Virus record (IMG/VR): IMGVR_UViG_3300008952_003043
Span: 1 to 35,348 of that record
Source of the DNA: a virus
DNA: 35,348 nt
Direction: 5' to 3' (one strand)
A program made the position numbers and the translations under genes. Within the stretch, counting starts at the first letter, position 1, and every line of letters begins with the position of its first letter. Shown here piece by piece: positions 1-23,459 of this stretch. Under the pieces are notes generated by a model. The model was not told the DNA's origin. It saw nothing but the letters and a program-made list of their open reading frames with translations, and ran no database searches.

Positions 1-53
1 CTACCCAACTCTATCCTGCAACTTACTTTGAGGTGATCAGTGAAAGTCGGTGA
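1..53 (+). CDS. 3' end of an SH3-like minigene (partial)
   Basis: The reading frame enters from the left edge (first full codon at 3) and ends FEVISESR-stop. That C-terminal signature recurs at the ends of paralogous genes at 1761-1964 and 23102-23254, so this is the tail of another member of the small SH3-like family. The last 14 bases (40-53) also encode the start of the next gene in another frame. Function unknown. Confidence 0.7.
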   Translation, partial: TQLYPATYFEVISESR

Positions 54-219
54 TCTAGTTAGAATAAAGGCTAGCCAGCATATCGCAGGTGGCACCGCCG
101 GAGTTATCACTTCCAAAAAAGGATGTGGATGGCCGAAAAAAGGGGCTGGGGTCTTTTGGGTTTTGATCGATGGTGTACCCCAGACGTATGACAGCAGTCA
201 GCTGGTGAAGATATCATGA
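40..219 (+). CDS. SH3-like minigene protein, 59 aa
   Basis: GTG start giving (V/M)KVGDLVRIK, followed by a short beta-rich pattern (GTAGVIT, VFWVLIDG) and the end QLVKIS. The start is chosen because GTGAAAGTCGGTGA is the conserved family start and overlaps the upstream stop by 14 bases. The pattern (KVGDLV, a G-V strand, a W/D-G hairpin, a final L-x-V-I strand) is what small KOW/Tudor/SH3-like barrels look like; that fold is an inference. It overlaps the next start by 4 bases (ATGA), implying translational coupling. Role unknown. Confidence 0.75.
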   Translation: MKVGDLVRIKASQHIAGGTAGVITSKKGCGWPKKGAGVFWVLIDGVPQTYDSSQLVKIS

Positions 220-416
220 AAGTCGGTGACCTGGTAATGTTTGTTGATGAAGGACGCTACGCAAAGTGGTTCTACGGACAGTTTGCTGTAGTTGAAATAG
301 CGACCGAGAAAACTCAAAGCTGCAGGGTGAGGTGGTTAACTCCAGTAAAGTATTTCAACAGTCACACGTCAGTCTCTGACTTTGGCTGGGACAAGTTTGA
401 AGTATGTTCTGTGTAA
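216..416 (+). CDS. SH3-like minigene protein, 66 aa
   Basis: Starts MKVGDLVMFVDEG and continues with alternating hydrophobic segments (FAVVEIAT, CRVRWLTP) typical of this family, ending FEVCSV. ATG overlaps the upstream stop by 4 bases. The final codons GTG TAA lie within the -35 element of the promoter at 412-439, so stop codon and promoter share bases. Function unknown; SH3-like fold inferred from pattern only. Confidence 0.8.
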   Translation: MKVGDLVMFVDEGRYAKWFYGQFAVVEIATEKTQSCRVRWLTPVKYFNSHTSVSDFGWDKFEVCSV

Positions 417-439
417 GATAGCAGACACCGTGGTATAAT
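412..439 (+). promoter_or_regulatory. Phage-family promoter P1
   Basis: TGTAAG at 412-417, 16-base spacer, TATAAT at 434-439, then AAGAGTATTAAGGGAGG. The TAA of the -35 is the stop of the gene ending at 416. It drives the membrane peptide at 465 and the following genes. Confidence 0.85.
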
Positions 440-464
440 AAGAGTATTAAGGGAGGCACATGTG

Positions 465-569
465 ATGTGTACAGAAGTTAGTTTCTATTTACAATTTGCA
501 ACGTATATGATGTTGATTGCGACCGTTCCACTCGGGATGGCGATTGTTTATATGATGGAGCGTAAATAA
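465..569 (+). CDS. Single-helix membrane peptide, 34 aa
   Basis: ATG at 465 gives MCTEVSFYLQF followed by one hydrophobic helix (about residues 10-30, including MMLIATVPLGMAIVYMM) and a basic end ERK. AGGGAGG at 450-456 is a strong ribosome binding site about eight bases upstream. First gene after promoter P1, like the small membrane peptides after five other promoters here. Its stop overlaps the next ATG (TAATG). Function unknown. Confidence 0.7.
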   Translation: MCTEVSFYLQFATYMMLIATVPLGMAIVYMMERK

Positions 570-949
570 TGAAGAAAGGTGATCTTGTAAGACTTGACAC
601 TAATAAGTGCTTTACTATGAAGCAGGGCGGAAAGCGTACTTTTCCGCTGAGCAATTATGCCAACGACACTGCGGGCACAGTCGAGGCGACACGGCTCGCA
701 ACCGATGAAGATGTCAGCGATTGGTATGACAGCGACGCTAGCAAGGGAATGACTGGCGGAGGCGAGACAAAGCTTCCTCCAACTGCATATACAGTCAGAC
801 TTCACAGGGATCGAGTCTACATGCTCCTCCGAGCGAGATGTCGGCCGCAATGGAACTATCGCTCTCACCCTGGAATGGCGCTGGTCCTCTGCACAGAATC
901 TGGTAGAGAAGCCTATGTCAAGCGTGACCTTTTGGAGGTGGCAAGCTGA
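569..949 (+). CDS. Long SH3-like family protein, 126 aa
   Basis: Begins MKKGDLVRLDTNKCFT, matching the family N-terminus, and ends RDLLEVAS like its paralogs, but is about twice the usual length. The extra residues 30-75 are polar (DEDVSDWYDSDASK), then come strands YTVRLHRDRVYML and MALVLCTESG. Coupled to neighbours on both sides by 1-base stop/start overlaps. May be an SH3-like barrel with a long inserted loop. Function unknown. Confidence 0.75.
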   Translation: MKKGDLVRLDTNKCFTMKQGGKRTFPLSNYANDTAGTVEATRLATDEDVSDWYDSDASKGMTGGGETKLPPTAYTVRLHRDRVYMLLRARCRPQWNYRSHPGMALVLCTESGREAYVKRDLLEVAS

Positions 950-1242
950 TGAAAGCAACAGTAACTAACACTGCGGGAATTCTCTTTCTCGCAGATAATG
1001 CGAAAGGCAGATCGCGATCTGTCTATGAAGACAAATTTATTCAGCATGTTGATCCTGACGGGATGCATGTGATGGGATTTAGCATGTTACACAATGATGT
1101 GGAGATGCGAACACAGTGGCTCTGTAAGATGAGAGACACTGACGAGCCTGCAGAGATCTGGCTCGATGTGGACTTTGACGCGCTTAGAGCGTGCACGACT
1201 GATATCGAAACAAACAACCAAGAGGTAAAAAATGGAAAGTGA
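949..1242 (+). CDS. Hypothetical protein, 97 aa
   Basis: ATG overlaps the upstream TGA by one base, and TTGGAGGTGGCAAGC just before it supplies the ribosome binding site. Sequence MKATVTNTAGILFLADNAKG has a short beta-rich start, then an acidic mixed region with EIWLDVDFDALRAC. No transmembrane segment and no family recognised. Part of the P1 operon. Confidence 0.65.
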   Translation: MKATVTNTAGILFLADNAKGRSRSVYEDKFIQHVDPDGMHVMGFSMLHNDVEMRTQWLCKMRDTDEPAEIWLDVDFDALRACTTDIETNNQEVKNGK

Positions 1243-1423
1243 AATGACAATTGACGAACTGAAGCCCTATGCTGAAAAGTACTTCTCAGAAGTTATTAAG
1301 TGCATGATCGAAACGCCCGAGCGTTCAGCTGAGTATGATTCTCACGTTGAAGATCTTGAAGCTATGAGCGAAAAGATGGATGAACAGTCTTTCGGATATC
1401 TTAAGCTCAAGGTAGTATACTGA
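1232..1423 (+). CDS. Hypothetical acidic helical protein, 63 aa
   Basis: MESEMTIDELKPYAEKYFSE and onward is rich in Glu and predicted helical. AGAGG about seven bases upstream of ATG 1232 supports this start; ATG 1244 is an in-frame alternative. It overlaps the previous gene by 11 bases and the next by one. Not recognised. Confidence 0.65.
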   Translation: MESEMTIDELKPYAEKYFSEVIKCMIETPERSAEYDSHVEDLEAMSEKMDEQSFGYLKLKVVY

Positions 1424-1527
1424 TGCTTGGGTTTCTAGGAGACGTTGTTACAGTAATGATTTCTCTTTATCTATATGACAAGTTTAAGGACTGGCGCGAC
1501 CGCCGTCGCTATCATGCTATGTGGTGA
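1423..1527 (+). CDS. Small membrane-associated peptide, 34 aa
   Basis: ATG overlaps the preceding stop (TGATG). MLGFLGDVVTVMISLYLYD is a single hydrophobic helix, followed by a strongly basic tail KFKDWRDRRRYHAMW. Probably a single-pass membrane peptide with a cytoplasmic basic tail. AAGCTCAAGGTAGTATACTG offers a weak ribosome binding site. Function unknown. Confidence 0.6.
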   Translation: MLGFLGDVVTVMISLYLYDKFKDWRDRRRYHAMW

Positions 1528-1530
1528 TCA

Positions 1531-1764
1531 GTGAAAGTCGGTGATCTAGTTAGACTTAGGAAGTCTCATCCGGCAGTACAGCGCTGGCGGAAAAGTTACC
1601 GGAGGCACGGGCACCCATTCATCGGGAAATGGGCAGATGAGGGCGCAGCGTTACTCCTGCTCAATGAGTGTGATTATATCGATGGAAGGTGGGAAGTGCT
1701 CGGCCCAGCCGGCCAGTCAGCATCTTTTGATTATTATTTGTTTACGACGCGGGGGATGACATGA
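1531..1764 (+). CDS. SH3-like minigene protein, 77 aa
   Basis: GTG start in the conserved sequence GTGAAAGTCGGTGATCTAG, the same words as at 40 and 23241. The protein starts MKVGDLVRLRKSH, has a basic stretch (RWRKSYRRHGH) and then ALLLLNECDYIDGRWEVLG. It lacks the usual LEV end and ends LFTTRGMT. Overlaps the next gene by 4 bases. Function unknown. Confidence 0.78.
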   Translation: MKVGDLVRLRKSHPAVQRWRKSYRRHGHPFIGKWADEGAALLLLNECDYIDGRWEVLGPAGQSASFDYYLFTTRGMT

Positions 1765-1964
1765 AAGTCGGTGACTTGGTAGTGGTAAACTTTCCCAGGG
1801 GATACGAGAAACCCGTTGTGGGCATTTTCGTTTGTGATGACACAAATGCTACCGGATATGACAAGGACGGATTCCGAGTTATTACCCGAGGATTCGTGTT
1901 GTGGGACGGCGACATCTTTTCAACACCCGTCGATCAGATAGAGGTGGTAAATGAGAGTAGGTAA
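1761..1964 (+). CDS. SH3-like minigene protein, 67 aa
   Basis: MKVGDLVVVNFPRGYEKPV, then a GIFVCDD strand, FVLWDGD hairpin and end QIEVVNESR. This is a textbook member of the local family. ATG overlaps the previous stop by 4 bases; its last 14 bases (1951-1964) are the start of the next paralog in another frame. Function unknown. Confidence 0.8.
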   Translation: MKVGDLVVVNFPRGYEKPVVGIFVCDDTNATGYDKDGFRVITRGFVLWDGDIFSTPVDQIEVVNESR

Positions 1965-2148
1965 TTTAGTGCGCCCGGTGCCGGGGCACTTTACAGTAAG
2001 TGAAGAAAATTGGATTGGCGTGGTGATTGACTTTCATATACGCGTTGACAACTGTGGCGAGCCGCTTGAGAGGTATGCTATTGTATGCTGGAACTCCGAC
2101 TTCCCACAGGAAGAAGAATATCCGGAATCTCTTGAGGTGATAGGATGA
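1951..2148 (+). CDS. SH3-like minigene protein, 65 aa
   Basis: MRVGNLVRPVPGHFTVSEEN, then GVVIDFHIRVD, IVCWNSD and end SLEVIG. The start ATGAGAGTAGGTAA lies inside the 3' end of the previous gene with GAGGTGG about seven bases upstream acting as ribosome binding site, so translation is probably coupled. Function unknown. Confidence 0.8.
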   Translation: MRVGNLVRPVPGHFTVSEENWIGVVIDFHIRVDNCGEPLERYAIVCWNSDFPQEEEYPESLEVIG

Positions 2149-2354
2149 AAGTAGGTGACTTGGTACAAATATCTGTAGAATCTATCATGTCTGGAAAAGG
2201 ACAAGAAACTGTTGAGGGTTGTGGTATGATCATCCAGGATCAATCGCCGATGAGGCCGGCGCACCTCCCCAGGCTGGTGAACGTGCTATGGGACGATGGC
2301 AAGATAGAAGAGAATCATACGTCTGACTTGGTGGTGCTCAGTGGACGTAGGTGA
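2145..2354 (+). CDS. SH3-like minigene protein, 69 aa
   Basis: MKVGDLVQISVESIMSGKGQ, then CGMIIQDQ, VNVLWDDGKIEEN and end DLVVLSGRR. The W-D-D-G hairpin is clear. ATG overlaps the upstream stop by 4 bases, preceded by GAGGTGATAGG. Its last 14 bases carry the GTG of the next paralog. Function unknown. Confidence 0.8.
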   Translation: MKVGDLVQISVESIMSGKGQETVEGCGMIIQDQSPMRPAHLPRLVNVLWDDGKIEENHTSDLVVLSGRR

Positions 2355-2550
2355 TAGGATGAAAATTGGTGATCTGGTTAGATGCACCCCCAATGTACAC
2401 GGAGATGAGAACAGAGTGGGTATTATCACTCATCTCTGGGTTGGCGGTGCTGCTAGCGTTCTGTATGAAGACGGTGAGTATGATGTCGACAGCGATGATC
2501 TAGAGGTAATAAGTGAAAGCCGATGGGGACGATGCACGGTCAGTGATTAG
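2341..2550 (+). CDS. SH3-like minigene protein with doubled start, 69 aa
   Basis: From GTG 2341 the protein begins MDVGDRMKIGDLVRC, in effect the family start written twice. ATG 2359 would give the usual MKIGDLVRC start and 63 residues. GTG 2341 sits in the same 14-base overlap used elsewhere, so either start is possible. The body (GIITHLWVGG, VLYEDGEYD, DLEVISESR) is typical, but the usual stop is lost and eight extra residues (WGRCTVSD) follow. Confidence 0.75.
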   Translation: MDVGDRMKIGDLVRCTPNVHGDENRVGIITHLWVGGAASVLYEDGEYDVDSDDLEVISESRWGRCTVSD

Positions 2551-2605
2551 TAGAACTACTGAGGATAAGATACTTATTCTAGATGAACAAGCATACGTCC
2601 TTTGA
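2513..2605 (+). pseudogene. Possible vestigial minigene start, 30-codon ORF
   Basis: GTGAAAGCCGATGGG at 2513 aligns with the family start GTGAAAGTCGGTGA but carries substitutions that both remove the stop of the upstream frame and change the K-V-G-D start to K-A-D-G. The resulting 30-codon frame has no SH3-like body. It reads as a decayed junction left by loss of a cassette; expression is doubtful. Confidence 0.3.
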
Positions 2606-3020
2606 GATAGGTGATTTAATTGCTGTGTTTGGCGGTGAGATCAGCAAAGAAGGCAGCACTGCAGACAGTGTCACTGTGTGCAAAGTGTTAGTAGTAGGTG
2701 AGCTAGACCTGTTAGTAGAAGAAGCGTCAGGTAGATTCTCTCGACTGTCTACATGTTTAGTTCCCAAGACGTTGAGCGTAAAGCTTGAAATAAGCCCGAG
2801 TCATCTTGAGAGCGAGACAACTCTGACACCGCAACTCGGGGATCTCGTCCTTGCTTATAGCCGTGACAGTTTCAAAAATGAAACTCCTACTAAAACCACT
2901 GGGATATTATTTAAGATAACTTATAAGCTAGGTAAACCGTATGTGTGCACCATCATTTCAGGTGATGAGATGAAAGAAGTACCAGCCGATAACTTAATAG
3001 TTCTTCAAAGAAAAGCTTAG
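2583..3020 (+). CDS. Double SH3-like protein, 145 aa
   Basis: Two consecutive units can be read: residues about 6-60 (FEIGDLIAVFGG to LSTCLVP) and about 80-140 (PQLGDLVLAYSRD to PADNLIVLQ). Each starts with G-D-L-I/V and ends with a hydrophobic L-V or I-V-L strand, suggesting fusion of two cassettes with drift. The intergenic sequence before ATG 2583 has no obvious ribosome binding site. Function unknown; the two-domain reading is an inference. Confidence 0.65.
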   Translation: MNKHTSFEIGDLIAVFGGEISKEGSTADSVTVCKVLVVGELDLLVEEASGRFSRLSTCLVPKTLSVKLEISPSHLESETTLTPQLGDLVLAYSRDSFKNETPTKTTGILFKITYKLGKPYVCTIISGDEMKEVPADNLIVLQRKA

Positions 3021-3023
3021 GAT

Positions 3024-3051
3024 TGTATTATTGCCAAGCGCGCAGTATATT
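3024..3051 (+). promoter_or_regulatory. Degenerate phage-family promoter P2
   Basis: TGTATT at 3024 and TATATT at 3046 with the same 22-base offset as the other copies. The downstream purine-rich leader is missing and replaced by TATCTAGGAGCC leading to ATG 3072. Weaker than P1. Confidence 0.5.
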
Positions 3052-3071
3052 GTATTATCTAGGAGCCACTG

Positions 3072-3275
3072 ATGAGATCCGGAGACCTGGTTAGATTCCG
3101 TGCGCCACACTGGCTAGGCGGAGCAGGCATGCCGGAAGATGAGTGTCCTTGGCTCATTGGACTTCTCATTGAATATCACAAGTGGGAAAAAATAGCTACA
3201 GTCATGTATAACGATGAGTTACTAAGGCTCGCAGCTCGAAACGTTCAAAAATATGGAAGGAGATATCTTGAATGA
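3072..3275 (+). CDS. SH3-like minigene protein, 67 aa
   Basis: MRSGDLVRFRAPHWLGGAGM, then a GLLIEYHKW strand, TVMYNDELL hairpin and end RNVQKYGRRYLE. TAGGAGC 9-10 bases upstream is the ribosome binding site. The C-terminus is less typical than its paralogs. Stop overlaps the start of the next gene (AATGA). Function unknown. Confidence 0.75.
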   Translation: MRSGDLVRFRAPHWLGGAGMPEDECPWLIGLLIEYHKWEKIATVMYNDELLRLAARNVQKYGRRYLE

Positions 3276-3412
3276 AGGCATGCGACACAATTGAGTTCTG
3301 GTCAGATCCGGTCATTATCCTGGTAGGCGCTATAACAGTATTCTATATGTTTGCTTGGGTGATGGAGAAGATTTCTAACTTTATTGGATACAGTGACGAC
3401 TGGGAGGACTAG
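3272..3412 (+). CDS. Single-helix membrane peptide, 46 aa
   Basis: ATG 3272 with AAGGAGATATC just upstream (strong site). Protein MKACDTIEFWSDPVIILVGA continues into one transmembrane helix (about residues 14-31, VIILVGAITVFYMFAWV) and an acidic end SDDWED. Overlaps the previous stop by 4 bases and the next GTG by one. Function unknown. Confidence 0.7.
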   Translation: MKACDTIEFWSDPVIILVGAITVFYMFAWVMEKISNFIGYSDDWED

Positions 3413-3798
3413 TGGAAGTAAATGAACTGATGTTTTGGGGTGTCTTCGGACTTTTTGTGGAACTTTGCTTTACTGCATTGAGAGCGCTAATTCAGAAAAA
3501 ACAATGGAGCCTCATTGGTCATACATCTATCTGGATGTTTCCCATCTATGCATTTGGGCTGACATACGGCTTTGACTTTATTGAGTATTTAATCACAACA
3601 GACTTTGTTCGCTATCTTACATACCCTTTTTGGATTTGGGCCGTCGAACTAGCTGTTGGTATTCCAGCCCTGTATCTGGGTCTTCGTTTGTGGGACTATA
3701 ACTATTTGCCCAAGTGGCTACACTGGAAGGGCGTTATCAGTTTTGCACATTACCCTCTATGGGCTGGGTTTGGAGTAATGGTGGAGTTGATCAAATGA
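3412..3798 (+). CDS. TMEM229 / CmpB-like multi-pass membrane protein
   Basis: A 128-residue, four-helix membrane protein from GTG 3412 with GGGAGGA 9-15 bases upstream. Motifs in order: FGLFVELCFTAL in helix 1, TSIWMFPIYAFG in helix 2, PFWIWAVELAVG in helix 3, LRLWDYNYLPKW, then a final helix with AHYPLWAGFGVMVE. The E in helix 1, the W-M-F-P-I-Y-x-x-G and the W-D-Y segment match the TMEM229 / putative ABC transporter type IV (CmpB, PF06541) pattern as I know it. Transport activity is not established for the family. Unusual in a phage-like setting; it sits inside the SH3-like array and overlaps the next ATG by 4 bases. Confidence 0.65.
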   Translation: MEVNELMFWGVFGLFVELCFTALRALIQKKQWSLIGHTSIWMFPIYAFGLTYGFDFIEYLITTDFVRYLTYPFWIWAVELAVGIPALYLGLRLWDYNYLPKWLHWKGVISFAHYPLWAGFGVMVELIK

Positions 3799-3998
3799 TA
3801 ATTGGCGACCTAATTAGATTTGAGGCCAGTGAAGATAATGATGAACGTATGTTCGGAACGATTCTTAGATTCTCAACTTACGAGGGAGGCTGCGGCCACG
3901 GCCGATCGCAGCCGCCTGAGAGAATCATCGAAGTGCTATGGAATACAGGCGAACTGGGCTGGATTTTAGCTGAACGAGTGGAGGTTGCGAGTGCTTAG
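3795..3998 (+). CDS. SH3-like minigene protein, 67 aa
   Basis: ATG 3795 is inside the ATGA overlap with the membrane protein upstream. MIIGDLIRFEASEDN, then GTILRFS, IIEVLWNTGELGW hairpin and end RVEVASA. A His/Gly/Arg insert (GGCGHGRSQPPER) lies before the second strand pair. Function unknown. Confidence 0.78.
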   Translation: MIIGDLIRFEASEDNDERMFGTILRFSTYEGGCGHGRSQPPERIIEVLWNTGELGWILAERVEVASA

Positions 3999-4344
3999 AC
4001 TGATTCCATTTATATTCTTGATTGCTTGCGGACCTTATAGATATCTCAAAAAGGATTACATAACCCTATCAGAAAGTCCGTGTGTAGACGGAACTATTCT
4101 CAATATCGACCAGGCAGGCTGCGAAGGGTTCTACTGGGGAACAGATATAGAAATGATTACACTCAAGATTCGATGCGCCTATGCGCCCGAAGATAGCTTT
4201 TGGACAAAATCATCTTTCTATGCAGTGCCTCATGACTATGAAATAATTCACGCGAATTGGAAGCTTTACTGTCAAGATAAGTACGTGAAGATGTATTCAG
4301 TTTCGCCGCCCACGAAATTGGAGATGGCAGAAGATGAGCAGTGA
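3991..4344 (+). CDS. Small lipoprotein, 117 aa (paralog of the one at 34531)
   Basis: From GTG 3991 (GGAGG about seven bases upstream) the protein is MLRLIPFIFLIACGPYRYLK, a lipoprotein signal peptide with the lipobox L-I-A-C. The mature part has C-V-D-G...N-I-D...C, I-R-C, FW...FYAVP and L-Y-C-Q-D, the same order as C-L-D...N-M-D...C, V-Q-C, FW...FFIVP and L-C-I-D in the protein at 34531-34896. It is therefore a diverged family with conserved cysteines. Phage lipoproteins are often superinfection-exclusion factors acting at the envelope; that role here is only a guess. Implies a host with a lipoprotein pathway. Confidence 0.75.
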   Translation: MLRLIPFIFLIACGPYRYLKKDYITLSESPCVDGTILNIDQAGCEGFYWGTDIEMITLKIRCAYAPEDSFWTKSSFYAVPHDYEIIHANWKLYCQDKYVKMYSVSPPTKLEMAEDEQ

Positions 4345-5140
4345 TTCGAACAAGACTCTGGAAGATATTTATCATCGAGCACAAGATCGAATCTGGGACG
4401 GTAGAGCTACTCTCGAACAACTGATTAATACTTACGGCAGCCCATCCCTACCTCCAGAGAAAGCGAAGGCACTCCAGAATATCTTCGCTGTGATTCTTGC
4501 GGGAGAAATGGCAGCTTGGAGAATTTCATTGCAGCTAGCAGATAGTGTTAGTGATGTAGGTGCCAGAATGGCAGCAACTAGCCAAGCACATGATGAAGCT
4601 CGACACTTTTATGTAATGAGGGACTACCTCAAACTAATCAATTATCAAGAGCAGTCGGTTCCAGCACCGGTAACTCAGGCATTAAAAATGATTTTGGATA
4701 CTGACGATCTGGCAAAGAAACTGCTTGGAATGCAACTCATGGTAGAGCCGGTTGCGCTAACAATATTCCAAGAGGTCCGACGAGTGTCGCCCGAACCTGT
4801 ACTAGCAGAACTTTTGAAGTATTTTGAAAGAGATGAAGCGCGACATGTTGCACTTGGAGTGCATCATTTACCTGTCGTTGCTAAAAACATGGGCCCAGTC
4901 AGGACAATGTCTTTGATTTCATGGCAGCTCAAAATCTTCATGCTTGAACTCGAAGGGTTAAAAATGTTGAGAGAAGATTTCACAGCACTCGGGCTCTCCC
5001 CTGAAGGGTTATTCGACTTAGCTGAAAAGAAACAGCTAGATGCACTTCGAGACTTTGTTAGCGAACTGGGTCTTAGTTCTAAAGTGTGGGAACCTATCCG
5101 ATTCTTTATAAGATATCAGAAAGGTCGGGTGCTTAGTTGA
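4334..5140 (+). CDS. Ferritin-like di-iron protein, 268 aa
   Basis: Helical protein with the full carboxylate-bridged di-iron ligand set: E58 (AGEMAAW), E88xxH91 (HDEARH), E138 (MVEPVAL) and E168xxH171 (RDEARH). The spacing E-29-ExxH-46-E-29-ExxH is that of the ribonucleotide reductase R2 / monooxygenase / desaturase-like ferritin superfamily. No radical tyrosine can be assigned, so it may be an oxidase or oxygenase rather than an R2 subunit, and no R1 partner is present. Substrate unknown. Overlaps the lipoprotein by 11 bases and the next gene by 4. Confidence 0.85.
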   Translation: MSSDSNKTLEDIYHRAQDRIWDGRATLEQLINTYGSPSLPPEKAKALQNIFAVILAGEMAAWRISLQLADSVSDVGARMAATSQAHDEARHFYVMRDYLKLINYQEQSVPAPVTQALKMILDTDDLAKKLLGMQLMVEPVALTIFQEVRRVSPEPVLAELLKYFERDEARHVALGVHHLPVVAKNMGPVRTMSLISWQLKIFMLELEGLKMLREDFTALGLSPEGLFDLAEKKQLDALRDFVSELGLSSKVWEPIRFFIRYQKGRVLS

Positions 5141-5334
5141 AGACAGGTGACTATGTTCTGGTTAGTTTAGGCGTTCATGATGAACAAATGCCGGCTGAAC
5201 GCCGCGACGGATTAGTTGTAGAGCTGGTGGGCCCGCGAAAGGATCAGGTCATTGTGATGTTTCATAACGGCGCTTTCTTGAAGTTTCATAAGTCTCAGTT
5301 AACTTTACTTGTAAAGATTCCCGGATCGCAGTAG
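5137..5334 (+). CDS. SH3-like minigene protein, 65 aa
   Basis: TTG start inside the ATGA-like overlap (TTGA) gives MKTGDYVLVSLGVHDEQ, then DGLVVELVGP, VIVMFHNGAFLKF and LTLLVKIPGSQ. The TAG stop at 5332-5334 is the first half of the -10 TAGAAT of promoter P3. Function unknown. Confidence 0.75.
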   Translation: MKTGDYVLVSLGVHDEQMPAERRDGLVVELVGPRKDQVIVMFHNGAFLKFHKSQLTLLVKIPGSQ

Positions 5335-5337
5335 AAT
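5310..5337 (+). promoter_or_regulatory. Phage-family promoter P3
   Basis: TGTAAA at 5310 and TAGAAT at 5332, offset 22. It lies inside the end of the upstream gene; the stop TAG is part of the -10. Confidence 0.75.
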
Positions 5338-5370
5338 AAACTATTGGTTAACAAAAAGGAGGAACCATAC

Positions 5371-5847
5371 ATGTCTGTTATTGACAAGCTTAGAAATATG
5401 AACTTAGATCATGATGCTGAAGTATCACTGTCTCTCGCTGAGGGAACTGATGTTTTCGTGCATAATGAGACCGAAGTCGAAACTGCACTTCAAGAAACTG
5501 ATGTTGTCAACACATTTTCAGAGTTGATTGCAACCCCGGGTTTGACTGTTACGACTCAATATGGGACTAACGTCATTGAGTCCCTTCGTGATGACGGTCT
5601 TCTGGATGATTATGATCGCGGAAGTTTTTCATTCGCTGAGTATCTTACTGAAACTATTAGCGATAACTTCTATGATCTAGATTTAATTGAATATTCTACT
5701 GAGAAGTATGATCACAAGCGAGGCTTCTGTACGCTGAGTGCTGATGTCAGAGTGTCTGTGAAAGAACTTTTTGATATTTCTCCTTACTTGGGTGGCTGGG
5801 ATGTGACCGTTCAAACTGAGAATGGTACGCTTAAGCTTGATAAGTGA
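5371..5847 (+). CDS. Hypothetical acidic protein, 158 aa
   Basis: ATG 5371 is preceded by AAAAAGGAGGAACC, one of the best ribosome binding sites in the window, so this start is preferred to the GTG 27 bases earlier. MSVIDKLRNMNLDHDAEV is followed by a strongly acidic alpha/beta sequence (many Asp/Glu, e.g. RDDGLLDDYDRG), ending ENGTLKLDK. Led by promoter P3 and so probably well expressed. The acidity could fit a DNA mimic, but no family is recognised. Confidence 0.7.
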   Translation: MSVIDKLRNMNLDHDAEVSLSLAEGTDVFVHNETEVETALQETDVVNTFSELIATPGLTVTTQYGTNVIESLRDDGLLDDYDRGSFSFAEYLTETISDNFYDLDLIEYSTEKYDHKRGFCTLSADVRVSVKELFDISPYLGGWDVTVQTENGTLKLDK

Positions 5848-5850
5848 TTA

Positions 5851-6009
5851 ATGTCACCTGGTGATTTTATCGTAAGAATTGCTTACTTAGATGACAATCA
5901 CATATGTGGTGTCATTGTCGACTTTGATTGCGATGACGATCCCATTATATTGTGGAACGGCGGTGTAATCGAAGAAGAGTACTTAAACATGGTAGTGCTG
6001 GCAGGATAA
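5851..6009 (+). CDS. SH3-like minigene protein, 52 aa
   Basis: ATG 5851 gives MSPGDFIVRIAYLDDN, then GVIVDFDCDDD, IILWNGGVIEEEY and end MVVLAG. The P-G-D start, W-N-G-G hairpin and V-V-L end place it in the family. It is the shortest intact member and the last of the first array. Function unknown. Confidence 0.72.
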   Translation: MSPGDFIVRIAYLDDNHICGVIVDFDCDDDPIILWNGGVIEEEYLNMVVLAG

Positions 6010-6039: not shown

Positions 6040-6402
6040 ATGGGAAGAAGGCGAAAGAAGAAGCTATGGAGTAAGCCGTCGGTCTATGAAACGATTGACG
6101 GCCTTCAAGTAAAAATGGATAGTACATGGGAGGTCGCCTGTGCCAGACGTCTGGATGAACTCGGCATCCGTTGGATAAGAAACCCAAGCCTCAAGCTGAA
6201 GTACACCACGCGGGGTAGAAGACAACGGAACTACATCCCAGATTTCTATCTTCCAGACCTGGATATTTATATCGAGGTAAAAGGATACTGGACCGATGCC
6301 GCGCGGCACAAAATGAAAAGCGTGCAGATAAACAATGATGTTAAGATACTAATCCTCGAGAGCCTAGAAGACATTAACAGCGTGGGTGATAAGCTTTCGT
6401 AA
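6040..6402 (+). CDS. PD-(D/E)XK endonuclease, 120 aa
   Basis: A basic N-terminus (MGRRRKKKLW) precedes the catalytic pattern: E31 in STWEVACARRL, D68 in YIPDFYLPD and E79-x-K81 in IYIEVKGYW. This is the small single-domain phage nuclease arrangement related to Vsr/DUF559-like enzymes that cut DNA. A TATATT lies immediately upstream (6031-6036) with no ribosome binding site, so the mRNA may start almost at the ATG. It could act in recombination, host DNA degradation or DNA packaging; the sequence does not say which. Confidence 0.8.
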   Translation: MGRRRKKKLWSKPSVYETIDGLQVKMDSTWEVACARRLDELGIRWIRNPSLKLKYTTRGRRQRNYIPDFYLPDLDIYIEVKGYWTDAARHKMKSVQINNDVKILILESLEDINSVGDKLS

Positions 6403-7317: not shown

Positions 7318-7700
7318 CAAGTAACTCGTCGGCGAGCACTCGCGGGTTTGCACTTCACGGCGGCAAAAAACAAGAAACGCTATAGCGGGAGGAAGAGTTA
7401 CTCGTGGACAAGTTACTCGTGCATAGAGAGAGACACGCAGATAAGTTACTCGTCCTCAGAGCGTAGACGATATCAGAGCGCAGCGTAGAGTACTCACGTT
7501 GATATCGACCAGTTCCCGGCACCCTGCCCATTAGTTACTCGTCGTCACACCCGCAAGTTACTCGTCGGTACATTCATTAGTTACTTTTCCTCAGACTTTT
7601 GCTCAGACGACGAGTTACTCGTCCATGGATCACTAGTACTTTTCCTCGAGATGTTACTCGCGCAAGTTACTTTTCCTCGAGCATTAGTGCTTTTCCTCGA
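7318..7700 (+). repeat. AGTTACTCGTC / AGTTACTTTTCCTCGA repeat field
   Basis: About a dozen copies in one non-coding stretch. AGTTACTCGT starts at 7396, 7411, 7444, 7533, 7556 and 7613, with an inverted-sense CAAGTAACTCGTC at 7318. The AGTTACTTTTCC form starts at 7579 and 7665, with variants AGTACTTTTCCTCGAG near 7635 and AGTGCTTTTCCTCGA near 7686, and TGTTACTCG near 7653. Spacing is irregular (about 15-90 bases). No spacers of constant length and no coding potential. It resembles iterons or clustered protein binding sites; origin, partition or silencing roles are possible. Confidence 0.8.
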
Positions 7701-7979
7701 TATCGTACTTGCGGGTACCTGTGATCACTCGTAGCGCGTGGCCACGTAGCCACGAACCATGGCTCTGCGTAGCGGCCCTCGAGAGGTACTCACTTGCGAG
7801 TAAAGTCGCTGCTACGGGTTGACAGGTTACGTTCAACTAAAGGGTTAAGGGTAACAGACTTAGCCCCGACTCGGACAAATGTACACGTATTTTGTGTAAA
7901 AAGATCTTTTACAAACATTTTACATCAATTTTACTCACTTTTTACATCTCGGAGAGCCCAAAATAGCTCGAAAGTAGCG
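7701..7979 (+). other. Non-coding regulatory stretch
   Basis: Between the repeat field and promoter P4 there is no believable gene. It holds degenerate repeat words (GATCACTCGTAG, GGTACTCACTTGCGAG), a short hairpin-like GTGGCCACGTAGCCAC near 7739, and the TTTTACA cluster described separately. A 71-codon frame here lacks a ribosome binding site and protein-like sequence. Confidence 0.5.
7895..7946 (+). promoter_or_regulatory. TTTTACA operator-like cluster
   Basis: TGTAAAA at 7895-7901 and TTTTACA at 7907-7913 form a 19-base inverted repeat around AGATC. Two more TTTTACA copies follow at 7918-7924 and 7940-7946, just upstream of promoter P4. Single copies also occur at 8558-8564 and 17434-17440. 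The spacing to TATAAT-like words on the minus strand does not fit the promoter family, so a protein binding site is more likely. Confidence 0.45.
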
Positions 7980-11305: not shown

Positions 11306-11327
11306 GTCCAGTGTGTGGACAGTGTGG

Positions 11328-11355
11328 CGTCGGCCCCGAGAGGGGTCGGCGTTTT
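11328..11355 (+). terminator. Rho-independent terminator after MoxR gene
   Basis: CGTCGGCCCC pairs with GGGGTCGGCG (10 pairs including two G-U) around a GAGA loop and is followed by TTTT. Confidence 0.85.
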
Positions 11356-11420
11356 GCACCGCGAGCCGGCTTCACCTCAGCTCAGCTGAGCGAGAGTTGG
11401 GCGCAGATCACACAACTTCG

Positions 11421-11448
11421 TGTAAGACACGACTAGACGTGGTATAAT
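11421..11448 (+). promoter_or_regulatory. Phage-family promoter P8
   Basis: TGTAAG at 11421, TATAAT at 11443, then AAGAAAGTAAGGAAAGGAA with ATG 11475 shortly downstream. Gives the VWA gene a separate transcript from the MoxR gene. Confidence 0.9.
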
Positions 11449-11474
11449 AAGAAAGTAAGGAAAGGAATACAAAC

Positions 11475-13853: not shown

Positions 13854-14154
13854 CATTATCGACATGCGAGAGTATAGAGAGATCGATCCGATTCTCAGAA
13901 AGGGAGACCTTGTCAGAGTGATCGAGTATCAGCCACCTTACGAACACCATATCGATGGACTGACAGGTATTGTCGTTGAAGTTCTCGAGACGTACGGTCC
14001 GGACACAGATGTGCCAGGACAAGCGAGCTGGCTGACCATCGCAGTTCCCGATGAGGAGGGCTGGTCAGAGTACGAGGTAGCACTAGGGATGATCGTTAGG
14101 CTCCTGGGTGCCGAGGCAGATGAGCTTCGTGGATATCAAGTGGGTTCTGTGTAA
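13846..14154 (+). CDS. SH3-like family protein, 102 aa
   Basis: ATG 13846 gives MSNIIDMREYREIDPILRKG, then DLVRVIEYQPPYE, GIVVEVLETYG, WLTIAVPDEEGW and a C-terminal extension ending YQVGSV. The central part fits the barrel pattern. GAGGAAGA upstream is the ribosome binding site. Its GTG TAA overprints the -35 of P10. Confidence 0.68.
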   Translation: MSNIIDMREYREIDPILRKGDLVRVIEYQPPYEHHIDGLTGIVVEVLETYGPDTDVPGQASWLTIAVPDEEGWSEYEVALGMIVRLLGAEADELRGYQVGSV

Positions 14155-17229: not shown

Positions 17230-17306
17230 GCGCCCGTAGCTCAGCTGGATAGAGCATCGGCCTTCTAAGCCGAGGGTCATAGGTTCGAATCCTATCGGGC
17301 GTGCCA
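17230..17306 (+). tRNA. tRNA-Arg (anticodon TCT)
   Basis: 77 bases. Acceptor GCGCCCG pairs with CGGGCGT; D arm GCTC/GAGC; anticodon arm TCGGC-CTTCTAA-GCCGA with TCT; T arm ATAGG-TTCGAAT-CCTAT; discriminator G and encoded CCA. Reads AGA/AGG, which is common in AT-rich genes but rare in GC-rich hosts, so it may support translation of the AT-rich genes. Confidence 0.95.
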
Positions 17307-19014: not shown

Positions 19015-19039
19015 AAGAAAGTAAACAAAGGAAGGTTAC

Positions 19040-20254: not shown

Positions 20255-20255
20255 A

Positions 20256-20283: not shown

Positions 20284-20334
20284 AAGAAAGTAAGGAAAGG
20301 AATCAACCCCGCTCACGCAGAACTGGAGTTCAGA

Positions 20335-20766: not shown

Positions 20767-20876
20767 TTGGTTGGTTGATGATTGCTTGCTTGGTAGGCGG
20801 AATGACGTGGTTCTTCGCTGCCTTTGCGTATACAGTGTTAATGTGGTCAAAGAATCGCAGGGAGAGAGCTAAGTGA
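20763..20876 (+). CDS. Single-helix membrane peptide, 37 aa
   Basis: MIGWLMIACLVGGMTWFFAA to about residue 28 is a hydrophobic helix, followed by a basic tail WSKNRRERAK. ATG overlaps the previous TGA and its stop overlaps the next GTG. Function unknown. Confidence 0.7.
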   Translation: MIGWLMIACLVGGMTWFFAAFAYTVLMWSKNRRERAK

Positions 20877-21079
20877 CAGTGGGTGACCTGGTCAAGTGGA
20901 CCTGGTATCTAGACGGAGTTGGAACTCCGACGAAACTATCAGGCATCGTAGTTGGCTCGCGGGTGGCGAAGACTGACCGTGAGAAGGTTATGATATACAG
21001 CGTCCTCTGTAATGACGGTCATGTCGACGATGTAAGAGAGGACGTTCCAACGTTGGAGTTGATCAATGAAAGTAGGTGA
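20873..21079 (+). CDS. SH3-like minigene protein, 68 aa (second array)
   Basis: GTG start gives MTVGDLVKWTWYLDGVGTP, then SGIVVGSRVAK, VMIYSVLCNDGHVDD and end LELINESR. Preceded by GGGAGAGAGCTAA. Its last 14 bases hold the next start, ATGAAAGTAGGTGA. Function unknown. Confidence 0.78.
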   Translation: MTVGDLVKWTWYLDGVGTPTKLSGIVVGSRVAKTDREKVMIYSVLCNDGHVDDVREDVPTLELINESR

Positions 21080-21221
21080 CATAGTGAGGCATGTGAAGAC
21101 AGGTGATGTCGCACTGGTGACTCAGTTGTGGGACAAAGGACACAATCGCGGAGTAGTAGAGGTCGTGCACAAGGGATCGCTAGTGAGGTGGTTCAGGACG
21201 TCGACGAAACCCGTCAACTAA
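21066..21221 (+). CDS. SH3-like minigene protein, 51 aa
   Basis: MKVGDIVRHVKTGDVALVTQ then WDKGHNRGVVEVVHKGSLVR and a basic end RWFRTSTKPVN. Shorter than most and without the LEV-type end, so possibly truncated. TAA at 21219-21221 sits two bases before the -35 of P19. Function unknown. Confidence 0.72.
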   Translation: MKVGDIVRHVKTGDVALVTQLWDKGHNRGVVEVVHKGSLVRWFRTSTKPVN

Positions 21222-21222
21222 G

Positions 21223-21250
21223 TGTAAGATACATCGAGGTGGGGTATAAT
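21223..21250 (+). promoter_or_regulatory. Phage-family promoter P19
   Basis: TGTAAG at 21223, TATAAT at 21245, AAGAATGTAAGGAAGGAAA, then leader word CTCTCACCAAGAGG before ATG 21302. Confidence 0.9.
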
Positions 21251-21301
21251 AAGAATGTAAGGAAGGAAATACCTTACGTCACTCTCACCAAGAGGTATCA
21301 A

Positions 21302-21397
21302 ATGAAACAGGTTCTCGAAGGAATCGTAGCAATCGCAGCCATCCCCGCAGTCATCGCGGTCGTGATTAATCTCAACATGTGCCTTCACGGCTGCTGA
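21302..21397 (+). CDS. Single-helix membrane peptide, 31 aa
   Basis: MKQVLEGIVAIAAIPAVIAV is a hydrophobic helix, ending NLNMCLHGC. CCAAGAGG upstream. First gene after P19, in the same position as the peptides at 22075 and 22992; the peptide at 22992 shares the C-terminal pattern C-x-H-x-C (MCLHGC against LCKHC). Function unknown. Confidence 0.65.
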   Translation: MKQVLEGIVAIAAIPAVIAVVINLNMCLHGC

Positions 21398-21407
21398 AGG
21401 GGAGATG

Positions 21408-21614
21408 ATGAAAGTCGGTGACATCGTACGAATCAAGGGCAACTTTCAGGTGCAGCATGCATCAGAAGAAGTGTGGCCAGAGGTGTATGGTCAGATCGGC
21501 GTGATAGTCGCACTGGCCAAGCGTCTCTATATTCCAGCCGCCAAAGTCATGGTTCTGGGTGAGGTCGCTGAGTTCGACATCGATGAGTTGGAGCTGGTCA
21601 ATGCCGAAGCGTAG
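21408..21614 (+). CDS. SH3-like minigene protein, 68 aa
   Basis: ATG 21408 (seven bases after AAGGGGAG) gives MKVGDIVRIKGNFQVQHASE; ATG 21405 would add one Met. Then GQIGVIVALAKRL, KVMVLGEVAEFD and end ELELVNAEA. The last 14 bases carry the next ATG. Function unknown. Confidence 0.78.
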   Translation: MKVGDIVRIKGNFQVQHASEEVWPEVYGQIGVIVALAKRLYIPAAKVMVLGEVAEFDIDELELVNAEA

Positions 21615-21810
21615 TGGTGCACCAGACGTCGGTGATATGGTCGCTGAGCGAGTTGGGCTGCGGCGAGCGACCGGTCTTGTTCTGGCTAGCTGGTTGGAAA
21701 CAGAGTCAGGGATTGGCATAGACGAACAAAGGTTCGAGGTCCTTTGGGCTGACGGTGTGATAGGCGAGCACATTGAGGATCAACTGGAGAAGATCAATGC
21801 AAGTCGGTGA
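21601..21810 (+). CDS. SH3-like minigene protein, 69 aa
   Basis: ATG 21601 lies in the 14-base overlap. MPKRSGAPDVGDMVAERVGL has an N-terminal extension of about eight residues before the V-G-D-M-V motif. Then GLVLASWLE, FEVLWADGVIGEH and end QLEKINASR. Function unknown. Confidence 0.75.
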   Translation: MPKRSGAPDVGDMVAERVGLRRATGLVLASWLETESGIGIDEQRFEVLWADGVIGEHIEDQLEKINASR

Positions 21811-21997
21811 TCTTGTACAGAATCTAAACTCCGAGTCTAGGATGCCCGGTGTTATTGTCGATATCGAATCGCGGCCGCTGGAAGGCGGATCATGCGGAGG
21901 AACGTTCGAAGCTCCTGTAGTTCTATGGTCAGATGGCCGATGCGGCTGGATCATGCCTAACATGGTGAGGGTGGTAGAAAACAAAAGCGACGTGTAA
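21797..21997 (+). CDS. SH3-like minigene protein, 66 aa
   Basis: ATGCAAGTCGGTGA is shared with the upstream end. MQVGDLVQNLNSESRMPGVI, then GGSCGGTFEAPVVLWSDGRC hairpin, GWIMPNMVRVVENKSDV. The last codons GTG TAA overprint the -35 of P20. The Cys/Gly insert resembles that of the paralog at 3795. Function unknown. Confidence 0.78.
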   Translation: MQVGDLVQNLNSESRMPGVIVDIESRPLEGGSCGGTFEAPVVLWSDGRCGWIMPNMVRVVENKSDV

Positions 21998-22020
21998 GAT
22001 GAGACCATGTGGGGTATAAT
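21993..22020 (+). promoter_or_regulatory. Phage-family promoter P20
   Basis: TGTAAG at 21993, TATAAT at 22015, AAGAATGTAGGGATGG, then leader word CTCCTCACCAAGGAAA before ATG 22075. Confidence 0.9.
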
Positions 22021-22074
22021 AAGAATGTAGGGATGGTCCTACAACAAAACGCGCTCCTCACCAAGGAAAACAAA

Positions 22075-22173
22075 ATGTCAAAACAACGCCTCTCAGAACT
22101 AATCATGCTCGGATACTCATCCGGAATCGGCATCGTCGCCGTCTTGCTCGCAGCCTCATCGGCCTGGGCGTAA
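22075..22173 (+). CDS. Small membrane or exported peptide, 32 aa
   Basis: MSKQRLSELIMLGYSSGIGI then a hydrophobic end VAVLLAASSAWA. Either a single membrane helix or a signal-like peptide ending A-W-A. CCAAGGAAAA is the ribosome binding site. First gene after P20. Function unknown. Confidence 0.65.
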   Translation: MSKQRLSELIMLGYSSGIGIVAVLLAASSAWA

Positions 22174-22182
22174 AGGATTATC

Positions 22183-22365
22183 ATGCACAGGGTTGGAGAT
22201 ACTGTCGTACATAAAGACTACCCGTCACAATTGGGTCGGGTGGTTGCGAAGCATAAGAGTACCGGTCTCAATGGTGCTATTATCTATCTCGTCAGGTGGA
22301 ACAGATCGGGAGATTGCTCTCGACACATTGGTTTTGCTTTGAAAGTCGCATTCAAAAAGCTGTAG
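22183..22365 (+). CDS. SH3-like minigene protein, 60 aa
   Basis: MHRVGDTVVHKDYPSQLGRV, then VVAKHKSTG, IIYLVRWNRSGDC and end ALKVAFKKL. R-V-G-D-T-V-V replaces K-V-G-D-L-V. AAGGATTATC upstream is the ribosome binding site. More basic than its paralogs. Function unknown. Confidence 0.72.
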   Translation: MHRVGDTVVHKDYPSQLGRVVAKHKSTGLNGAIIYLVRWNRSGDCSRHIGFALKVAFKKL

Positions 22366-22377
22366 TAGGAGAAGTTG

Positions 22378-22500
22378 ATGCAGGAATACGGAACGAAAGA
22401 AAAGATTTGGGATGCTGTCGCATGCGTGATGTTTGCGATATCATTCTTTGTGCTGACGTGGGTCGCATTCGCGATGGACGTGATCACGACAGGGATGTGA
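22378..22500 (+). CDS. Single-helix membrane peptide, 40 aa
   Basis: ATG 22378 has TAGGAGAAGTTG upstream. MQEYGTKEKIWDAVACVMFA then hydrophobic ISFFVLTWVAFAMDVITTGM. One transmembrane helix with a charged N-terminal part. Stop overlaps the next ATG (TGATG). Function unknown. Confidence 0.7.
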   Translation: MQEYGTKEKIWDAVACVMFAISFFVLTWVAFAMDVITTGM

Positions 22501-22784
22501 TGCCGAGGAAGAGAAGAGTAATCGATGGGTATGGGATGATCGTTGTCTATGAAGAGACAACCACAACCCAGTGGGTGCAGATGGTAGGTGAAGCAATGGT
22601 CCGCTGCGATGACGCAGCTAAGAAGACCGGGAGAGGTGCTTGGATCGTCTTCGAGCCGGGGAGGACTCAGTCCTGGTTCGGGGGAGAACCCGCGAATCTC
22701 TTGGGCACTGCCAAGATCGATCCCACGCTTTGGATCCGCGACGAGTGGGTGCGGAAAACCGAATACGAAAAAGATGTGAGTTAG
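22500..22784 (+). CDS. Hypothetical protein, 94 aa
   Basis: ATG 22500 by 1-base overlap; MPRKRRVIDGYGMIVVYEET, then TTTTQWVQMVGEAMVRCDDA and IVFEPGRTQSWFGG, ending KTEYEKDVS. Alpha/beta soluble protein, not recognised. The upstream ribosome binding site is poor, so it is probably coupled. Confidence 0.62.
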   Translation: MPRKRRVIDGYGMIVVYEETTTTQWVQMVGEAMVRCDDAAKKTGRGAWIVFEPGRTQSWFGGEPANLLGTAKIDPTLWIRDEWVRKTEYEKDVS

Positions 22785-22792
22785 GGTGATAA

Positions 22793-22909
22793 GTGGAAAA
22801 AGAAAAACATCCAACGTTGTTTGAGTTTGTCGTAGGAGTATGGTTGCTCATTGCCGGGATTGTCTGGGTGTGCAACGAAGTGATCCCGACAATCAGGAAC
22901 TTCCTGTAA
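22793..22909 (+). CDS. Single-helix membrane peptide, 38 aa
   Basis: GTG 22793 gives (V/M)EKEKHPTLFEFVVGVWLL continuing to one hydrophobic helix and end IPTIRNFL. TTAGGGTGATAA upstream. Its CTG TAA overprints the -35 of P21, which supports this reading frame. Function unknown. Confidence 0.65.
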   Translation: MEKEKHPTLFEFVVGVWLLIAGIVWVCNEVIPTIRNFL

Positions 22910-22932
22910 GATGAGCCCGGGTGGGGTATAAT
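22905..22932 (+). promoter_or_regulatory. Phage-family promoter P21
   Basis: TGTAAG at 22905, TATAAT at 22927, AAGAATGTAAGGAAGGAAA, then leader word CTCCTCACCAAGGAAA before ATG 22992. Confidence 0.9.
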
Positions 22933-22991
22933 AAGAATGTAAGGAAGGAAATACTTCAAGTCCTTACAAACCTCCTCACCAAGGAAACATC

Positions 22992-23102
22992 ATGAACCTC
23001 CTCAAGAACTACAAAGAACGAATCGAAGGCCTCCTCATCCTCGGCGTGCTGCCGATGGCAGTGATTGGCGCACAGATCCTCGACCTCTGTAAGCACTGCT
23101 AA
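22992..23102 (+). CDS. Single-helix membrane peptide, 36 aa
   Basis: MNLLKNYKERIEGLLILGVL then a hydrophobic segment PMAVIGAQILDL and end CKHC. CCAAGGAAAC upstream. First gene after P21. TAATG overlap with the next minigene. Function unknown. Confidence 0.68.
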   Translation: MNLLKNYKERIEGLLILGVLPMAVIGAQILDLCKHC

Positions 23103-23254
23103 TGGAAGTAGGTGATCTGGTAAAGCATAAACGGTTTAACATCTGTTATTTGGTGACCAAAGTTGACAATTCAGCAATGGTGGGTGTCTTAGAAGCTGGT
23201 GAAATAAGGTACATAGCACAAGAATGGCTGGAGGTGGTAAGTGAAAGTCGGTGA
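23102..23254 (+). CDS. SH3-like minigene protein, 50 aa
   Basis: MEVGDLVKHKRFNICYLVTK, then AMVGVLEAGEIRYIAQEW and end LEVVSESR. Very compact but complete by the family pattern, giving a minimal unit of about 50 residues. 14-base overlap with the next gene. Function unknown. Confidence 0.76.
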   Translation: MEVGDLVKHKRFNICYLVTKVDNSAMVGVLEAGEIRYIAQEWLEVVSESR

Positions 23255-23459
23255 CTATGTCTATGACTGGGACTTCGGCCTGCTAGGGCTGATCGTAGAC
23301 AAGCTGCCCTGTAATAGCTTTGTTCTCCTGTATGAGGATGGTGAGCAGGGCGAGGCATTTGAGAATGCACTCAGCCACCCGGTCAAAGTAGGTCTGTGCG
23401 CTGAAGAGGGGGCGCCCCGGGGCGCGGGCTCTCACCCAGCAAGGGCGCCCCTACCATAG
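23241..23459 (+). CDS. SH3-like minigene protein with abnormal C-terminus, 72 aa
   Basis: GTGAAAGTCGGTGA start gives MKVGDYVYDWDFGLLGLIVD, then FVLLYEDGEQGEAF. The expected final strand is absent: after about residue 50 the frame enters the GC-rich block and reads EEGAPRGAGSHPARAPLP. The cassette was probably cut by insertion or expansion of that block. Last member of the second array. Confidence 0.6.
   Translation: MKVGDYVYDWDFGLLGLIVDKLPCNSFVLLYEDGEQGEAFENALSHPVKVGLCAEEGAPRGAGSHPARAPLP

Follow-up and report, generated by a model that had tools for sequence, protein, structure and literature searches.

The stretch of viral DNA analysed here, called the window, is the IMG/VR virus record IMGVR_UViG_3300008952_003043 (35,348 bases). 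It carries two clusters of small genes encoding SH3-like proteins, near positions 40-6009 and 20873-23459, where an earlier note on this DNA had also placed them. Members of the family that follow one another directly are linked through a conserved sequence of about 32 nucleotides (nt), referred to as the joint, in which the shared end of one gene and the shared start of the next are one DNA element. This joint and the small genes that it links, referred to as cassettes, are the subject of this report. The joint is carried by at least 119 viral stretches, and 1,272 different family members were collected. The nearest relative of the window is the contig G001 (L121; 235,672 bases), whose MoxR-like ATPase is 81% identical. 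By synteny, G001 keeps both clusters at matching relative places with differing contents. The genes and joints of the two clusters lie on the plus strand, as do 13846-14154, 6040-6402 and the repeat copy at 408-449, and genes are named by their first position in the window.

Membership was assessed with a profile of the protein bodies alone, built from 751 training members from other contigs after the shared start and end had been cut off. Each test was compared with 1000 shuffled bodies and with 26 scored control genes, the best of which reached 1.5 bits. Eleven window genes (21797, 2359, 21601, 1951, 2145, 22183, 5851, 1761, 21408, 13846 and 3795) outscored all shuffled bodies and all controls, and for another six (20873, 5137, 23102, 40, 21066 and 23241) at most 5 of the 1000 shuffles scored higher. 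Apart from 13846, these 17 genes with full or nearly full support are all cluster members (16). Genes 3072 and 216 are weak by this profile, yet they have clear homologues that are members. Genes 1531 and 569 were not separable by it; a 69% homologue of the former carries a NESR end at a 14-nt joint, and the latter has homologues at 53-58% identity. No relative and no body-profile support were found for 2583. The bodies share the motifs G-[IV]-[IV]-[VI] and V-x-W-x-D-G, and net charge ranges from -13 to +17 across the 1,272 members. Chance similarity of the starts is ruled out by the body-only profile, and the earlier view that the likeness extends beyond the start is supported for the genes that pass or nearly pass. 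Its count of 14 plus 8 copies stands for the eight members of cluster 2, whereas profile and homologues leave about 12 in cluster 1. Among the four distant relatives that it had listed, 13846 is retained (10.6 bits) and 13163, 13452 and 32966 score like shuffled sequence.

Cluster 1 opens with the 3' end of a truncated member (..YFEVISESR*) and its joint into gene 40 (1-53). Member 40 (40-219; 59 amino acids, aa; 7.6 bits by the body profile; similar proteins in L138 and L140 by eye) overlaps its upstream neighbour by 14 nt and its downstream neighbour by 4 nt (ATGA). Member 216 (216-416; 66 aa) ends this run without an ESR tail and has a 69% homologue, L130:14005, that is also run-terminal. 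It is followed by 569 (569-949; 126 aa), a probable elaborated member in which AlphaFold and Foldseek point to an SH3-like core with an insert. At 1517-1554 lies a joint with a non-coding remnant (..GTGATCAGTGAAAGTCGGTGATCTAG) as its upstream half, assigned to repeat family D5 and 95% identical to positions 26-63. The longest run then begins with 1531 (1531-1764; 77 aa), whose 69% homologue lies in L054, and 1761 (1761-1964; 67 aa; IEVVNESR end; 10.9 bits; homologues at 53-61%), which is linked to 1951 by a 14-nt overlap joint at 1937-1970. Member 1951 (1951-2148; 65 aa; 14.5 bits) has a 61% homologue in G001, located in the corresponding cluster beside a different neighbour. Member 2145 (2145-2354; 69 aa) is followed by a doubled joint (AGTGGACGTAGGTGATAGGATGAAAATTGGTGATCTGG) at 2327-2375 and by 2359 (2359-2550; 63 aa; 18.4 bits), which has an ISESR tail and then runs on through a decayed joint. 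Further on are 3072 (3072-3275; 67 aa; 85% homologue L130:5012), a joint-like start at 3784-3815 whose upstream gene (3412-3798) encodes a non-family membrane-type protein ending in MVELIK, 3795 (3795-3998; 67 aa; 10.1 bits), 5137 (5137-5334; 65 aa; 8.7 bits; similar genes in G001 and G002) and 5851 (5851-6009; 52 aa; 12.0 bits), which closes the cluster.

In cluster 2, member 20873 (20873-21079; 68 aa; LELINESR end; 9.4 bits) is linked by a 14-nt overlap joint at 21052-21090 to the run-terminal 21066 (21066-21221; 51 aa; 7.4 bits). A second run consists of 21408 (21408-21614; 68 aa; 85% homologue L123:14051), 21601 (21601-21810; 69 aa; 16.7 bits), whose joint start is altered (MPKRSGAPDVGDMV), and 21797 (21797-21997; 66 aa; 20.5 bits), with the 14-nt overlap joint between the last two at 21783-21821. 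Member 22183 (22183-22365; 60 aa; 12.8 bits) comes next. Member 23102 (23102-23254; 50 aa; LEVVSESR end) is linked at 23227-23265, again with a 14-nt overlap, to 23241 (23241-23459; 72 aa; 6.9 bits), which closes the cluster and whose tail enters a G+C-rich tract. This very G+C-rich tract (23400-23640) contains repeated CCCTAGGGGGCC-type sequence directly 3' of the last cassette and is followed by repeated TTTTTCCGGAGAA. Outside both clusters stands the isolated relative 13846 (13846-14154; 102 aa), which has homologues in L123 and L125. The genes had been described as tandem. This is true only of short runs (the truncated gene to 40 to 216, and 1531 to 1761 to 1951 to 2145 to 2359, in cluster 1; 20873 to 21066, 21408 to 21601 to 21797, and 23102 to 23241, in cluster 2), but unrelated genes stand between them.

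The consensus of the joint is TGGAGGTnATCARTGAAAGTCGGTGATTTGGT. It is read in two frames (CTGGAGGTGATCAATGAAAGTAGGTGATCTGGT): the first gives L-E-V-I-(N/S)-E-S-R-stop and the next gives M-K-V-G-D-L-V. Because the two frames share one joint, neighbouring genes overlap by exactly 14 nt. The joint contains GGAGGTGATC, a Shine-Dalgarno site, and both a start and a stop codon lie inside it; no inverted repeat was seen in the consensus by inspection. Being a coding overlap, it has no room for a promoter and a stem-loop, and promoter-like repeats lie elsewhere in the window, not at joints. Across 539 distinct 14-nt joints, 44 bits of information fall between -20 and +22 of the start, and positions outside this interval hold about 0.075 bit each. 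The codon for Val-3 is GTC in 375 of 442 joints (85%), compared with 1,273 of 6,316 valine codons in the bodies (20%). Of 249 member-member pairs, 201 (81%) overlap by 14 nt; so do 22 of 101 pairs in which a non-member precedes a member and 10 of 279 other gene pairs of the same loci (3.6%). The overlaps generally enriched between genes are 4, 1 and 8 nt, and translational coupling is most efficient between -4 and +3 (review PMC12548453). An overlap of 14 nt therefore stands out from the usual ones, and there is no obvious sign that it was selected for efficient coupling.

The shared start and the L-E-V-I type end had been listed as separate marks of the family. Both are present, and what was missed is that they are one DNA sequence in two frames. 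The end used as such a mark is to a good extent the following gene's Shine-Dalgarno site and start, seen in a different frame. Where a 14-nt overlap lies downstream, 487 of 532 members end in an ESR-type tail; where no member follows, 30 of 482 do. Among homologous pairs of one internal and one terminal copy, the tail is present only in the internal copy in 116 cases and only in the terminal copy in 2. The tail is a mechanical consequence of the overlap, and the telling part is that the same family loses it where no cassette follows. For instance, the terminal member 216 ends in FEVCSV and its homologue, terminal as well, in FEVCD; member 1951 ends in LEVIG at a 4-nt joint and its G001 homologue in LEVVNESR at a 14-nt joint. 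Genes that escape the family profile can likewise have an ESR end where they lie upstream at a joint, and some of them resemble GIY-YIG, Smr, MazG-like and membrane proteins (names by eye). The C-terminus of a member is determined by its neighbour, not by its fold.

The AlphaFold model of 21797, built from an alignment of 69 sequences, is a five-stranded SH3/Tudor barrel with a mean predicted local distance difference test (pLDDT) score of 92.8. Its strands lie at residues 6-9, 17-27, 36-44, 49-51 and 57-59, with a short helical turn (HHH) before the last. The best fold matches in the PDB belong to the SH3/Tudor/PWWP class (TM-scores mostly 0.55-0.67, E 0.01-0.3) and include PetP, PWWP domains, the UvrD Tudor domain, YorP and a de novo SH3 design. 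The model of 569, from four sequences, reached a pLDDT of 81.5 with weak Foldseek SH3 matches over about 50 residues; it is probably an elaborated SH3 barrel, predicted at lower confidence. The words cassette-like and one fold, used in the earlier description, are supported by the body-only profile and the barrel model. In Pfam and PHROG scans most members were without a family, and at the Pfam cut-off they do not count as KOW proteins (PF00467): the motif matched 1 of 69 members (E=0.003) and none of the 10 window proteins scanned. Against 50,697 phage records, a consensus-like sequence and member 1761 were unmatched by tblastn, and the joint DNA gave only weak, chance-level matches. The best-looking of these, a joint-like sequence of 23 nt in Xanthomonas phage X1 (L144:3001-3023), has a similar Shine-Dalgarno site and start, with a 14-nt overlap by which a CCA-adding-enzyme gene is joined to a small downstream gene; the latter lies outside the family, and the site was set aside as a coincidence, perhaps convergent.

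What do the barrels do? This fold is widely used for binding proteins and nucleic acids, and a host-interaction or anti-defence role is possible. A proposal only slightly short of evenly balanced is that each barrel would bind a different host or phage partner, the array being an exchangeable set for host interaction or host takeover. A more tentative proposal is that the barrels are KOW/Tudor-type regulators of the transcription or translation machinery (RNA polymerase, ribosome or nucleic acid) and not anti-defence factors. The best profile matches in the PDB are to the NusG KOW domain (E=0.001), ribosomal uL24c and Spt5, with E values of 0.001-0.15, and among the Foldseek matches are two RNA polymerase binders, the UvrD Tudor domain and Mfd. 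However, all of these matches are weak and the small barrel serves many purposes. The conserved positions (GD, G, W-DG) look structural and therefore imply no common partner.

The members appear to belong to one large pool. Relatedness was defined as E<1e-8 with 70% cover, over 104 contigs after removal of near-duplicates. Related pairs make up 20 of 9,843 pairs within a contig (0.20%) and 1,491 of 762,060 between contigs (0.20%). In the window, no member has a relative inside the window at E<1e-8, although 13 of the 18 scored members have one elsewhere at that threshold. Because relatedness within contigs is no higher than between them, the arrays appear to have been assembled from a shared, well-mixed pool by exchange at the joint, and not by local duplication. 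Clustering of the 1,272 sequences at 40% identity gave 668 clusters, of which 476 are singletons, and the Chao2 estimate of the pool for this sample is about 1,640. The median ratio of nonsynonymous to synonymous substitution rates (dN/dS) is 0.16 and exceeds 1 in none of 151 pairs. Since no ratio lies above 1 and the median is this low, the cassette bodies are judged to be working proteins under purifying selection, and neutral decay is ruled out.

Exchange is visible at the joints themselves. When members of two loci are 60-99% identical, the members that follow them are also related in 36 of 199 pairs, compared with 30 of 44 pairs for the next gene of non-family genes in the same loci and identity range. 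When DNA is aligned on the joint, the shared side and the joint itself are 75-96% identical, and identity beyond the joint is 21-32%. Downstream, the drop occurs within about 25 nt of the start (43 pairs), and a mirror-image drop is seen upstream of the joint (45 pairs). In the comparison of 2145-2354 with L033:1108, protein identity is 84% between two joints and the sequences are unrelated outside, so that both breakpoints are visible. In G001 the homologue of the 23102 cassette sits in cluster 1, not in cluster 2 as in the window, and 23 cases of whole-cassette insertion or loss were found between related neighbours. The remnant joint at 1517-1554 is as would be expected if an upstream cassette had been replaced by another gene.

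Taken together, the anatomy of the joint, the breakpoints on both sides of it, the well-mixed pool and the lack of an in-situ duplication signal, along with purifying selection on the bodies and the confident barrel model, make it likely that these genes are exchangeable cassettes of large T4-type marine phages, one SH3/Tudor-like barrel each, fused through a conserved joint. The joint comprises the final codons of gene n with their stop, a Shine-Dalgarno site, and the opening seven codons of gene n+1, start included. A homologous crossover between any two joints would then rebuild the stop, the ribosome-binding site, the start codon and the first barrel strand. Since every crossover would restore these signals whatever bodies flank it, cassettes could be inserted, deleted or replaced without damage. 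Homologous recombination within the joint may drive the exchange, with the phage's own UvsX/RecA-type system as the probable recombinase; some phage recombinases tolerate divergence, e.g., Rad52-like ones (PMC3945230). The genes may be translated by coupling through the joint, and the arrangement of a coupled pair, an overlapping stop and start with a Shine-Dalgarno site inside the upstream gene, is present. A wider proposal, on which we are evenly divided, is that this is an undescribed exchange platform in which a universal coding joint would circulate hundreds to thousands of small-barrel cassettes and so give each phage a personal, quickly renewed host-binding set.

Several points weigh against exchange of cassettes through the joint. 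The joint is not obligatory, because 100 of 830 tandem pairs use an ordinary 4-nt overlap. The coupling step may be weak, since 14 nt is an inefficient spacing when the best lies between -4 and +3 (PMC12548453). Breakpoints at joints would also be expected from random recombination of which only the in-frame products persisted. With 44 pairs, the non-family control for conserved neighbours is small, and most loci were collected by the joint pattern, which favours good joints. Loci fetched by synteny agree with the rest, with 45 of 64 tandem pairs at -14 nt.

Could the joint be a translation device only, kept for initiation, with the breakpoints being the survivors of random illegitimate recombination? 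The sequence GGAGGTGATC matches the anti-Shine-Dalgarno sequence, Shine-Dalgarno-type 5-mers precede 382 of 539 joint starts against 145 of 484 array-first starts, and ESR tails occur on unrelated upstream proteins. Such a device would not account for the fixation of synonymous positions irrelevant to initiation, such as GTC, nor for identity that runs through the joint between otherwise unrelated neighbours. Moreover, the 14-nt overlap is not the favoured coupling distance (PMC12548453) and is rare among the other genes of the same phages. This explanation is considered improbable.

Somewhat less probable again is that exchange is driven by a dedicated nuclease or integrase that cleaves the joint, in the manner of homing endonucleases or integrons. 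The candidates would be the GIY-YIG-like genes of other arrays, whose products precede some joints, and an endonuclease or Holliday-junction resolvase-like gene that adjoins cluster 1 (6040-6402). The latter matches PHROG families (E 5e-14 and 7e-13) and is found at the corresponding place in G001 and G003 by synteny. By inspection, however, the joint has no inverted repeats and no integron-like site, and no integrase appeared in the Pfam and PHROG scans of the window proteins scanned, which were not searches aimed at integrases.

Weakest is the view of the earlier note, in which one gene was repeatedly duplicated in tandem within the phage and its copies diverged toward different host targets: it would fit the single fold, the single start, the head-to-tail order and the doubled joint at 2327-2375, which suggests occasional local duplication, yet it appears largely refuted for recent times, and so very unlikely, by the equal relatedness within and between contigs, the lack of relatives within the window, the differing neighbours of highly similar cassettes and the lack of any dN/dS above 1.

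The carriers of the joint are uncultivated contigs. The T4-type major capsid protein gp23 was found in 6 of 8 viral carrier contigs tested, G001 among them; this test covered carrier contigs, and the window fragment itself was not shown to encode a capsid gene. A RecA-family match above the curated cut-off was found in 7 of the 8, with a weak match in the remaining one. The large carrier contigs thus appear to be T4-type phages with RecA/UvsX-like recombinases, and these matches make it very probable that the window is a fragment of a large T4-type phage. The label marine comes from how we interpret the sample sets and some genome record titles, not from a habitat table. Ten matches in genome collections sit on contigs of unrelated metagenome-assembled genome bins and so point to no host. 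The contig L142 (CP070664.1), filed as a WOR-3 bacterial chromosome, holds two perfect joints and members and would be integrated or misbinned phage DNA.

Several other features of the window were noted. A promoter-like repeat (family D1, TGTAAG-N15-GGTATAATAAGAAAGTAAGGA) occurs at 15 places between 408 and 22942, before many genes; one copy, TGTAAG-N-GGTATAATAAGA, lies at 408-449. It is probably a promoter used throughout the phage and resembles sigma-70 promoters, although its -35 box is unusual. At 7380-7720 there are irregular direct repeats around AGTTACTCGT, and parts of them are 82-89% conserved in G001. At 10274-12839 a MoxR-type ATPase gene is followed by one for a VWA/metallopeptidase-type (DUF2201) protein, and the pair is adjacent in G001 and G003 too. 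A tRNA-Arg (TCT) lies at 17230-17306, and its DNA is 86% identical to the counterpart in Aeromonas phage vB_AsaP_MQM1. Six consecutive genes at 24424-26234 have or start with MKLT(R/K)xxLxxLIxEEL(S/A)RL, which resembles an N-terminal targeting or propeptide signal, e.g., of T4 internal proteins, and a similar start is found in G003 (L129:8060). Possibly host-derived genes lie at 4334-5140, 29647-30186 and 31945-32976, in which a ferritin/hydroxylase-like protein was matched by Pfam and a fatty-acid-hydroxylase-like protein and a DnaJ-like chaperone were named by eye.

In the open-access literature, no earlier description of the joint or the cassettes was found, and MKVGDLV appeared in no paper. 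The results suggest how phages could renew a set of small accessory proteins and yet keep them intact, as the exchange site carries all the signals for expressing the incoming gene. Two questions become testable. Do short coding overlaps act as recombination joints? What is the role of hundreds of families of tiny phage proteins with one fold? For annotation, the warning is that a conserved C-terminus can be the ribosome-binding site of the neighbouring gene. The pool is hardly represented in collections of isolate phages and protein families. So large and poorly represented a pool may yield many new proteins that bind bacterial ones.

Parts of this arrangement have counterparts in known systems. 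Small SH3-like phage proteins (Gp30.5 of phage TuIa and the DUF2158 protein of Serratia phage X20) and YorP of B. subtilis have the same barrel by structure comparison, but their sequence families do not match the members. We know of no account of these three as cassette arrays. Integrons likewise hold arrays whose small and highly diverse genes come from a large shared pool. Here, in contrast, the joint is part of the coding sequence, start codon included, and an integron is ruled out as inspection of the joint showed no attC-like site. In lambdoid phages, short boundary or linker sequences shared between modules are thought to guide homologous exchange, but they are not a gene-gene overlap repeated dozens of times per genome. 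Another likeness is to the promoter early stem-loop (PeSL) cassettes of T4-type phages, which Arbiol and colleagues in 2010 and Comeau and colleagues in 2014 reportedly described. According to work cited in PMC4503421, T4-type phages shuffle accessory genes at PeSL linkers. Both are short conserved linkers between small accessory genes in T4-type phages that serve, or here appear to serve, as shuffling sites. The PeSLs are composite promoter-terminator motifs, to judge from the title of Comeau 2014 as cited in PMC4503421. The linker described here, by contrast, is coding on both sides, with overlapping stop, Shine-Dalgarno site and start, and nearly all of its cassettes encode one fold.

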